Made by a program: the position numbers and the translations under genes. A stretch of 64,000 nt of DNA from positions 62,001-126,000 of the forward strand of contig CAMCRE010000001.1 of assembly GCA_945877255.1 (NCBI GenBank), in the 5' to 3' direction. Shown piece by piece: positions 27,612 through 48,884 of the stretch. The notes beneath the pieces were generated by a model. That model saw nothing but the letters and a program-made list of their open reading frames with translations, did not search any database and was not told the DNA's origin. The stretch comes from an uncultured Erysipelotrichaceae bacterium (GTDB taxonomy: Bacteria > Bacillota_I > Bacilli_A > Erysipelotrichales > Erysipelotrichaceae). Each line of letters starts with the position of its first letter. Positions within the stretch are counted from its first letter, which is position 1.

Positions 27612-27700
27612 GTTGTATGCATCTATAAGCTACAACCGCTCATAAAAAGGTTTAAGCGAGTCACCTTACATGGCGAGTCTATAGAGAAAAAGGAGGTGCA
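27612..27700 (+). ncRNA. Ribosomal protein L21 leader
   Basis: The 5' untranslated region of rplU. CTATA (27623-27627) can pair with TATAG (27680-27684) to enclose an internal region with CCGCTC, GCGAG and a CACC...TGGCG pair, consistent with the Bacillota L21 leader described upstream of rplU. That element is thought to let L21 repress its own operon. The AGGAGG site follows the closing stem directly. Identification rests on position and partial pairing, not on a covariance-model match. Confidence 0.65.
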
Positions 27701-46089: not shown

Positions 46090-46251
46090 ATGTTTAGTAA
46101 ACTTTTAAAATCATTAAAAAATAATCAACAACAAGAGAATGATTTAGAAAAATGGCAAAAAGAATTAGTTGAAAAGGGAGAATATGATGTTTGTAATTTT
46201 GAAGAAGAAGAGTTAGAAGATGACGATTATCATTTTGAAGATGAGCAATAA
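46090..46251 (+). CDS. 53-residue acidic protein of unknown function
   Basis: A short gene with its own promoter and a strong AGGAGGG site ending 5 bases before ATG 46090. The product starts with a basic amphipathic stretch (MFSKLLKSLK), has a helical charged middle (ENDLEKWQKELVEKGEY) and ends with a very acidic tail (EEEELEDDDYHFEDEQ). No membrane segment. It resembles no family I can name. It is monocistronic or co-transcribed with the large orphan gene 278 bases downstream; a dedicated promoter for that gene argues for separate transcripts. Confidence 0.7.
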   Translation: MFSKLLKSLKNNQQQENDLEKWQKELVEKGEYDVCNFEEEELEDDDYHFEDEQ

Positions 46252-46381: not shown

Positions 46382-46410
46382 TTGACTGTTTATTTTAAAA
46401 TCGGTATAAT
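46382..46410 (+). promoter_or_regulatory. Promoter of the orphan 763-residue protein gene
   Basis: -35 TTGACT (46382-46387), 17-base spacer, -10 TATAAT (46405-46410). Transcription would start near 46417, leaving an untranslated leader of about 113 bases. The remainder of 46252-46381 is A/T-rich with no gene seen. Confidence 0.8.
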
Positions 46411-46469: not shown

Positions 46470-46504
46470 CAATATAATGGCATATGCATTTGCATATGCT
46501 ATTG
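46470..46504 (+). promoter_or_regulatory. Leader hairpin of the orphan gene
   Basis: Arms GCATATGCA and TGCATATGC pair perfectly around TT (46480-46499), and flanking CAATA (46470-46474) can pair with TATTG (46500-46504) across a 5-base bulge. It ends 13 bases before the AGGAGGG ribosome-binding site, so it is placed to affect initiation, or to act as a DNA operator. Confidence 0.65.
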
Positions 46505-46529
46505 TTGACTAAAGAATAGGAGGGATAGA

Positions 46530-48821
46530 GTGTATTATACGTTGTACTACTTGTTGAAAAATAACGGGACACTTGCAGGAGCTAAACAATTGTCGTCTAG
46601 AAAAATGTGTTATGCTGATTTGTTTTTTGTGGATGAAAAAATATTTTCATTAGGTGAGCGAGAAAAAACGTACTTTATTACATTGCGGTCGATTGCTGAG
46701 AATAATATAAATATTGGACTTGATATATTAGATAGTGTTTATTTTCTGGCGGCACATAATATTCCGGTAAGTGTAATTGATAACATTTATAAGCATAACA
46801 TTAAAACACTAACAGAATTTAAAAATGAAGCATTTAAATATCGTTCGCAAATAGGAATCTCTAATAAAGTTTTTGAAACGATTTTATCAGCATGTGATAA
46901 AATAAAAATTAGTGAATATGAAAAATTTATGGCGTTGACTTTCTATTGGATTTTCAATAATAATGATGAAGCAATAGATAGTTATTATCGTTTTTTATTC
47001 CGATATTTGAATACTGAAAAAGTATACTATTTTTTAGGAGAAGAATTAGGAAATGGCCATTTGACATTAGAAGACAATACAGTAAAGTTTGCTAAAAAAT
47101 CAATTAAAAATTTTATTAATTATAATAATGAAGAAATTAATATATTAAAAGAGCGATTAAATGGCGACACACTCCAACAAATAGGTGATCGAAGAAACTT
47201 AACTAGAGAAAGAATTAGACAAAAAATAACCAAGATTTTTCAATTAATTGGAGATTTAAAAGAAGATCAATATCAAACAGTGTTTGAAAAATATGACATG
47301 TCACTTGATGATTTTAAAACGTTGTATCATGAAGATGAGAGTACGTATTATTATTTAAACAATAAATATACAAGAGGTAATTTACCAGTATTTAAAATAT
47401 TTGATGAATATCAATTTAAAGACACAAGTAAAAATGCATTATTGACTGCTAAAAATTTAATGGTCAATTCTCATAATGAAACGACAACATTGAATTTAAT
47501 TAATTTATTCAGTGAATGTATGTATAAAAATAAAAATAAAAATTTTGATGAAAAATCTATCGAAAAAAAATTTTATGAATTACTTTATACATACAACCCA
47601 GAATATAGAGGACGTACAGTAGCATTACGTGGAATAATAGAAAGATGTACATGTATTATATTTTCTAACTCTAATCAATTTAGATATTTTGAATGTCAAA
47701 TTACAGATAAAATCATTAACAAAATTAATCAAATTACAGATTTGCGACCAGGAATATACGGTGCATCTAAAATATATAACGATAATAAAAAATTAATGAA
47801 GCAATTAGATTTACGTAACAGTTATGAGTTTTGTGATTTTTGTACGAAGTTTGTGGGTGTTACGAACTTAAAATTCATTAAAAAAATACATCGTAGAACA
47901 GAAATTCAAATTAGAGAAATTTCAAAAATCGACTTTATACAAACGATATTATATATGAATATTGATTGTAAAGTGCGTGATGTAGTAAATGATCTTGAAA
48001 AAAAATATGGTTTAAATCAATCGTCTATTTTAACGTACATTCGTTTGAAATTTCCAGAAGCGATCACAAACCAACACATTAAGTTAGTAAGAAATATCGA
48101 CTTAGCTGAACGAATAACAGAATATATTAATGAAAATTTTGATAAAGATTTGTATGGATTAGATGCATTCAACCAACAAATAAGAAACCATTTCAATAAT
48201 GATAGTATACATGTCCATAATCAGTTACTTGAAGAAACTAATTATCGTATTGGAAATGAATTTGTGTATAGCAACAAATATAGTTCGCATCAAGAAGCAT
48301 TGCAGCAATATTTAATTAGTCTTCATAAATTTAATTTCAAAACATTAGAATTACCTAAAACGTCTACTTTATATAATGCAGTTAGAAAGTTAGAACTTGA
48401 ATTTAAAATATTTAAACTAGATGATCAAGTTTTTGTGAGTGAAGAATGGTTATCACAATATGGAATACGAATTCAAGAGATAAAAGATTATGTTGCAAAC
48501 GTAGAAGACTTTACTAAAAACATGGATATTTTTACCCTTGATTCAATCATTAATCAAGGGTTTCACGACAATTTATTAAAATATCAACTAAATACTGTTT
48601 TTTATGAGCGTTTAATTACAACGATTAAAAATATTTCTTGGATAAGAAGTAAACCAATCATTTTTAGCTATAGTAAAAATCATGTTTCGATTGATGATGT
48701 TGTAAAATATTACATTGATGAAGAAATAACAGATATTGAAACATTATATGATATACTGAATAATCAAATGAATTTAAATGTAGCTAAATCAACGATATCA
48801 AGTATATTGATTAAAAAATAA
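46530..48821 (+). CDS. Orphan 763-residue protein with sigma-70 region 4-like HTH
   Basis: A large soluble protein I cannot assign to a named family. Residues about 204-240 (LKERLNGDTLQQIGDRRNLTRERIRQ then KITKIFQ) closely resemble sigma-70 region 4, the helix-turn-helix that reads -35 elements. Residues about 77-123 (IPVSVIDNIYKHNIKTLTEF followed by ISNKVFETILSACDKI) have the look of the helix-hairpin-helix C-terminal domain of RNA polymerase alpha subunit. No sigma region 2 is seen, so it is not a normal sigma factor. The rest has Tyr/Asn/Lys-rich helical stretches and possible winged-helix parts (about 485-520, 595-640). GTG 46530 follows AGGAGGG. It has a strong promoter and structured leader and no obvious partner gene. 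A role in transcription control or genome defence is speculation. Confidence 0.7.
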   Translation: MYYTLYYLLKNNGTLAGAKQLSSRKMCYADLFFVDEKIFSLGEREKTYFITLRSIAENNINIGLDILDSVYFLAAHNIPVSVIDNIYKHNIKTLTEFKNEAFKYRSQIGISNKVFETILSACDKIKISEYEKFMALTFYWIFNNNDEAIDSYYRFLFRYLNTEKVYYFLGEELGNGHLTLEDNTVKFAKKSIKNFINYNNEEINILKERLNGDTLQQIGDRRNLTRERIRQKITKIFQLIGDLKEDQYQTVFEKYDMSLDDFKTLYHEDESTYYYLNNKYTRGNLPVFKIFDEYQFKDTSKNALLTAKNLMVNSHNETTTLNLINLFSECMYKNKNKNFDEKSIEKKFYELLYTYNPEYRGRTVALRGIIERCTCIIFSNSNQFRYFECQITDKIINKINQITDLRPGIYGASKIYNDNKKLMKQLDLRNSYEFCDFCTKFVGVTNLKFIKKIHRRTEIQIREISKIDFIQTILYMNIDCKVRDVVNDLEKKYGLNQSSILTYIRLKFPEAITNQHIKLVRNIDLAERITEYINENFDKDLYGLDAFNQQIRNHFNNDSIHVHNQLLEETNYRIGNEFVYSNKYSSHQEALQQYLISLHKFNFKTLELPKTSTLYNAVRKLELEFKIFKLDDQVFVSEEWLSQYGIRIQEIKDYVANVEDFTKNMDIFTLDSIINQGFHDNLLKYQLNTVFYERLITTIKNISWIRSKPIIFSYSKNHVSIDDVVKYYIDEEITDIETLYDILNNQMNLNVAKSTISSILIKK

Positions 48822-48851
48822 TTTTAAAAACGATATAAATTTGTTTATTTT

Positions 48852-48884
48852 TTTCTTAAAAAGGTGTATTATTATTTTAAGAAA
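48852..48884 (+). promoter_or_regulatory. Inverted repeat in the deacetylase promoter region
   Basis: Perfect 10-bp arms TTTCTTAAAA (48852-48861) and TTTTAAGAAA (48875-48884) enclose a possible -10 TATTAT (48867-48872). No convincing -35 is at standard spacing. This layout fits a regulator that covers the promoter, or an RNA hairpin just before the ribosome-binding site at 48889. Confidence 0.55.

Follow-up and report, generated by a model that had tools for sequence, protein, structure and literature searches.

The gene and its leader

The window, a stretch of 64,000 nucleotides from an uncultured Erysipelotrichaceae bacterium, is part of a 1.26-Mb genome that is 98% complete. On the forward strand it carries a 763-codon open reading frame (ORF; 46530..48821) with a GTG start codon, flanked by genes for an MFS transporter and a polysaccharide deacetylase. 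Based on the ORF, its coding signature, and its homologs, the product is a 763-aa, helix-turn-helix (HTH)-rich protein with a sigma-70 region 4 (sigma-4) module and a segment at the position of an RNA polymerase alpha C-terminal domain (alpha-CTD), belonging to a family that we refer to as SigHTH. The codon usage of the ORF (-3.605 per codon) falls within the range of its neighbours (-3.49 to -3.67), the other reading frames at 46530-48821 score -4.34 and -4.83 per codon, and no open stretch exceeds 104 codons in shuffled DNA of equal make-up, compared to the 763 found here, confirming that the originally predicted gene is genuine.

The ribosome-binding site (RBS) AGGAGG (46518..46523, +) can be read directly from the sequence 6 nt ahead of the GTG. 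A sigma-A type promoter, TTGACT-17-TATAAT (46382..46410, +), matches 11 of the 12 consensus positions and is the top site in a 3-kb scan, in line with the strong promoter of its own that had been proposed for the gene; the total number of promoter-like sites in the scanned region (n = 33) is near the expectation from shuffled sequences (mean 26). The leader also contains a long inverted repeat (46474..46505; strand not applicable) with a 14-bp stem in the fold and the palindromic core GCATATGCA-TT-TGCATATGC at 46480-46499, which could be a hairpin or an operator. The structured leader of the original prediction is thus represented by this hairpin, but the leader as a whole folds barely better than shuffled sequences (z -2.04; 6/200). 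The palindrome is present as a single copy in the 1.26-Mb genome with up to three mismatches allowed, and none is conserved upstream of the relatives, leading us to reject a role as a shared operator.

Two further features were observed in the window. A 53-aa ORF (46090-46251, +) occupies the gap between the MFS and SigHTH genes, has its own AGGAGG site in an RBS context similar to that of SigHTH, and encodes a strongly acidic tail (EEEELEDDDYHFEDEQ). The sole Rfam match in the window is a ribosomal protein L21 leader (RF00559) at 27624-27690 (+), with a score of 45 bits.

Promoter-reading modules

The sigma-4 module occupies residues 204-238 (47139..47243, +), in agreement with the segment of about residues 204-240 predicted previously, and is supported by Pfam, by a DNA search, and by comparison with the sigma-A of the host. 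Pfam Sigma70_r4 matches these residues with an E-value of 2.3e-4 and 21 bits (cut-off 24.1 bits), and the genome-wide DNA search assigns the module 25.3 bits, above the cut-off. It is the one credible Pfam domain in the window protein; TnsA, NleF, and other weak Pfam matches were rejected as chance. The window helix TLQQIGDRRNLTRERIRQ aligns with TLEEVGQLFNVTRERIRQ of the host sigma-A and is identical to it across the recognition helix TRERIRQ. In sigma-70, the residues at these positions contact the -35 element, and their conservation in the window protein would favour promoter-like DNA as its target. As originally noted, Pfam detects no Sigma70_r2 (region 2, for core binding and -10 recognition) in the window protein, which is therefore not a sigma factor; region 2 is also not among the Pfam families listed for 26 SigHTH members.

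The helix-hairpin-helix (HhH) of an alpha-CTD, previously placed at about residues 77-123, was recovered in part. Pfam finds no alpha-CTD in the window protein, and an alpha-CTD-only profile built from the relatives scores at chance level (equalled by 212 of 2000 shuffles), but a profile of the corresponding family columns, built with the window left out, matches residues 69-125 (46734..46904, +) with 17.1 bits, a score reached by 0/2000 shuffles. Since these columns were chosen on an alignment including the window sequence, the match is supportive rather than independent evidence, suggesting a degenerate counterpart of the alpha-CTD HhH of the relatives. Pfam matches to RNA_pol_A_CTD were obtained for seven of the 26 SigHTH members, and Sigma70_r4 was identified in 17. 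The relative L002 contains two alpha-CTDs (E 2.2e-35, the best in the family) and a Sigma70_r4 (E 6e-9), and it passes the Pfam cut-offs for both domains, as do L060 and L062. Consequently, the proposed pair of promoter-reading modules derived from RNA polymerase holds for the family, while in the window copy the sigma-4 module is found directly and the alpha-CTD solely by homologous position.

The modest scores of the window protein (sigma-4 at 21 bits, alpha-CTD unmatched) might also be expected of an ordinary HTH protein, in which a generic HTH had been taken for sigma-4 and the alpha-CTD had been misread. We consider this highly improbable, as no other HTH family was matched by the window protein, the relatives pass the Pfam cut-offs for both domains, and homology over most of its length ties the window protein to these relatives. 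A PDB sequence search with the window protein returned nothing, and a profile search yielded one weak, irrelevant match. AlphaFold, run on an alignment of two sequences, reached a pLDDT of 37, leaving the domain model without structural support.

The SigHTH family and its genomic neighbourhoods

The family C-terminal region, identified by alignment A3, by profile, and by pairwise comparison with L002, spans residues 243-763 of the window protein (47256..48818, +). The family profile matches it over nearly all of 555 positions with an E-value of 2e-152, the window sequence being among the 11 training sequences. Independent support comes from the pairwise alignment with L002, which covers residues 192-750 (E 3e-17, 23% identity). 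The window protein furthermore matches an Exiguobacterium plasmid protein (E 4e-20) and other proteins within its order. Thus, the view of the protein as an orphan with 500 residues that match nothing has to be revised, as those residues are common to a whole family, whose members align along most of the protein and are found in Bacillota, in mycoplasma-type genomes, and on enterococcal plasmids. NCBI names the plasmid proteins "sigma factor-like helix-turn-helix DNA-binding protein"; the family is therefore known to the databases, but without an established function.

SigHTH proteins range from 760 to 1070 aa, and their distribution is sparse. The A3 profile, which covers the C-terminal region and leaves out both promoter modules, identified relatives in 15 of 392 genomes sampled across the phylum, including small TGA-reading genomes, and in 10 of 196 genomes of the taxonomic family of the window. 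Of the plasmid records with SigHTH, 48/52 are enterococcal. The members from TGA-reading genomes lack the TRERIRQ helix, and some of them keep the operon. A pattern-based scan of genome contigs gave no match for the window protein and matched L002 only to itself, SigHTH queries had no match in the viral contigs, and phage records yielded short alpha-CTD-like matches only. One copy, L011 in G088, is broken by an in-frame TAG and frame changes.

Many relatives are located beside genes of restriction-modification (R-M) or other defence systems. On plasmids of Enterococcus faecalis, E. casseliflavus, and E. lactis, SigHTH is the first gene of an abutting trio, followed by a ParB-like protein of ~405 aa (weak Pfam ParB match, E 0.0022, under the cut-off) and a 620-aa SNF2/DEAD helicase. 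L054 and L055, two TGA-reading genomes, encode the same trio. L048 and L064 share the gene order Sau3AI, SigHTH, ParB-like, and SNF2, with a divergent cytosine methyltransferase (Dcm), and the Sau3AI of L048 scores 472.8 bits compared to an NCBIfam cut-off of 300. In two other small TGA-reading genomes (translation table 4), SigHTH (L056 8446-10863; L058 904-3276) ends an operon of an N4/N6-methyltransferase, SNF2, and a PbeC/DndD-like protein. Exiguobacterium has the arrangement Dcm-Vsr-SigHTH, and in L060 SigHTH is accompanied by a Schlafen-group helicase (PDC-S41), Vsr, Dcm, a FokI-type nuclease, and PDC-M33A/B. In Priestia, the family C-terminal region is fused into a protein annotated as a MutH/Sau3AI endonuclease, whose gene lies near SNF2, ParB-like, Dcm, and second Sau3AI genes.

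In the unbiased sample of 392 genomes, eight of the 15 SigHTH carriers are defence-linked, with adjacent ParB-like and SNF2 genes (n = 4), Dcm (n = 2), or Pbe-like genes (n = 2). The remaining seven, the window included, have no defence genes beside SigHTH. A search for the ParB-like protein in the same 392 genomes returned eight genomes, and the four strong matches all adjoin SigHTH. A fifth match, in G423, lies beside a diverged SigHTH (A3 E 1.9e-17), the ParB of G038 is broken, and G459 and G493 carry MutH-ParB-SNF2 in R-M loci without a recognisable SigHTH; SigHTH is therefore not obligatory in ParB-SNF2 R-M loci. The ParB-like/SNF2 pair also occurs on viral contigs, following type II methyltransferases and what appear, by eye, to be type III R-M genes. 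Hence, several restriction systems seem to carry this pair as an add-on, and in Bacillota SigHTH is frequently its third member.

Regarding the individual viral contigs, ParB-like/SNF2 directly follows two type III R-M-looking genes in L086, L087, and L088, which contain no SigHTH. L089, L090, and L091 encode a cytosine methyltransferase, a protein of ~309-328 aa of no known type, and the ParB-like protein; SNF2 follows the latter in L089 and L090, and L091 ends inside the ParB-like gene.

Among the members without defence genes, two orphan groups (L052/L053 and L059/L061/L067) have neighbours that stay the same from one species or genus to another, an argument for a lasting role of some orphans in their own right. 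Defence-linked and orphan members are interspersed on the tree, which led us to reject a single origin of the linked members, and from which it follows that partners were gained or lost repeatedly across the family. Within the near-identical pair L050/L051, a methyltransferase is located next door in only one.

Among the orphans of three genera (L059, L061, and L067), SigHTH is followed by a SEL1/SLR-repeat-like protein, forming a conserved two-gene unit without defence genes. An ion-channel-like gene is located divergently upstream of SigHTH in two families of the order (L004 1596-2225; L067 11640-12581).

The solitary window copy and its possible function

The genome of the window encodes no ParB-like protein, no cytosine methyltransferase, and no MutH/Sau3AI above the cut-off, and its copy of SigHTH consequently stands alone, such partners having been either lost or never acquired; no SNF2 gene is found near it, the SNF2 genes of this genome lying elsewhere. 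The earlier suggestion of a part in a defence system is thus supported for many relatives, which lie beside defence genes, whereas the genome of the window offers its copy no such partner. This copy is also divergent and fast-evolving. It forms a long branch (2.16) whose placement is not settled in the tree; its position beside L017 was flagged as a long-branch join and not used. Two conserved C-terminal motifs of the relatives, YELHNLLKK (DIRDEYELHNLLKK) and RMPxIxFG, are degenerate, and the last ~35 residues of their C-terminus are missing. The family profile match continues past the stop codon (48822-48875, +) through two in-frame TAA codons, a hint at a shortened C-terminus, although such a match may arise by chance in AT-rich DNA.

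Beyond the flanking genes, the window retains an RqcH-gmk pair that is kept in relatives, but inspection of 29 relatives revealed neither the window SigHTH gene nor its neighbour at this site. The absence from this site in 29/29 relatives, the long and unsettled branch, the degenerate and shorter C-terminus, and the missing partners could all be explained if the window gene were a leftover of a lost defence locus, with its partners deleted and the gene itself drifting towards loss. This appears improbable, as the frame stays open for 763 codons in AT-rich DNA, its codon usage resembles that of the neighbouring genes, a strong promoter and an RBS precede it, the recognition helix is intact, and no decay is visible.

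On these grounds, we give slightly better than even credence to the interpretation that the window protein belongs, as a solitary and divergent member, to a family in which alpha-CTD-type HhH modules are combined with a region 4 of sigma-A type and an extended C-terminal region, and in which the protein would most likely serve as a DNA-recognition subunit in the operons of the relatives and, in the window, as a repurposed, lone binder of promoter-like DNA. We infer that the modules derived from RNA polymerase may bind -35/UP-like promoter DNA, for example on incoming transcribed DNA. In the operons, SigHTH would supply the recognition, leaving action on the bound DNA to the SNF2 helicase and ParB-like subunits. 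Lacking partners but retaining the helix that reads the -35 element, the window copy would most likely bind promoter-like DNA alone, as a repurposed regulator expressed from its own sigma-A promoter and perhaps autoregulated at the leader palindrome. The loss of TRERIRQ in the members from TGA-reading genomes suggests that -35 reading is dispensable for the role shared by the family, and weakens the -35 idea as a family-wide mechanism.

The main rival to this interpretation is a dedicated transcription regulator, in which SigHTH would tune RNA polymerase at -35 elements, timing nuclease expression in R-M operons and regulating housekeeping genes in the orphans, so that the defence linkage would reflect operon control rather than a share in attacking DNA. 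In its favour, the two modules that can be identified both read promoters, the sigma-4 helix agrees with that of sigma-A, and the window gene has a strong promoter and a unique palindrome as a possible operator. The seven of 15 carriers without defence genes and the orphans with conserved neighbours also count against a defence reading and would suit a housekeeping regulator. Still, 760-1070 aa is very large for a regulator, SigHTH lies inside the operon abutting ParB and SNF2 instead of being divergent, the Priestia member is joined to a MutH-type nuclease, and members that have lost the helix in TGA-reading genomes in some cases keep the operon. Therefore, we consider a pure regulator rather unlikely.

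Going beyond the recognition subunit favoured above, we tentatively propose, as a possibility that we regard as somewhat doubtful, that SigHTH may be the recognition subunit of an undescribed anti-phage system. Its borrowed promoter-reading modules would find promoter-rich or transcribed foreign DNA and hand it over to a ParB-like protein and SNF2 translocase added to various restriction systems, with the window copy as a solitary derivative. If so, a family named only by its sigma-like helix would become a testable component of R-M-linked defence, with the enterococcal plasmid operon open to laboratory study and parts of RNA polymerase reused for the recognition of foreign DNA. This would also suggest an origin for lone chimeric proteins in small bacterial genomes.

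Bacterial proteins combining features of RNA polymerase alpha and sigma were reportedly noted by Aravind and Iyer in 2012 in their HARE-HTH paper, and are said to carry an alpha-CTD and sigma-4 in one polypeptide, as SigHTH does; the HARE-HTH domain was not among the top 25 Pfam families shown for the 26 SigHTH members. While the alpha/sigma combination itself has thus reportedly been noted before, our searches of the open-licence literature turned up no account of the defence operon with its SigHTH-ParB-SNF2 set. The window gene is accordingly a new solitary variant of a known, uncharacterised kind, and the greater interest lies in the linkage of the family to defence. A member of the same family is WP_002362439.1 from the E. 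faecalis plasmid pQZ076-2, which shares the sigma-4 helix and the homologous C-terminal region with the window protein; it is encoded in an operon with ParB-like and SNF2, whereas the window protein stands alone and is ~100 aa shorter.

MzaA and PglW set a precedent for defence proteins that contain sigma-4-like and alpha-CTD-like pieces. MzaA of the MZA anti-phage system, mentioned as a sigma factor of mzaABCDE (PMC9523054), shares a sigma-4-like segment within a large defence protein. However, its similarity to SigHTH relatives is restricted to ~45 residues with at most 34 bits (NCBIfam cut-off 800), the window protein has no MzaA match, and no MutL, Z1, or AIPR partners of MZA were seen. 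PglW of type 2 BREX has an alpha-CTD-like HhH that matches 60 residues of L002 (E 5.5e-8), but the match is limited to the HhH stretch, no kinase or BREX genes were seen, and PADLOC gave no match for the window protein. Beyond these short MzaA and PglW stretches, PADLOC models detected nothing in the SigHTH and ParB-like proteins tested. Sau3AI and Dcm accompany several SigHTH relatives, but are absent from the genome of the window, and a description of Sau3AI-type R-M lists R, M, and sometimes helicase genes, with no mention of SigHTH (PMC10059834). Similarities to Pbe/Dnd-type systems (PbeA, PbeC/DndD) are found in L056 and L058, where the SigHTH member follows MTase, SNF2, and PbeC-like genes, but no Dnd modification genes were seen and the Pbe-like genes are not in the window. 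In L048, the N-terminus of the SNF2 protein encoded with SigHTH matches PbeA with an E-value of 3.4e-60.
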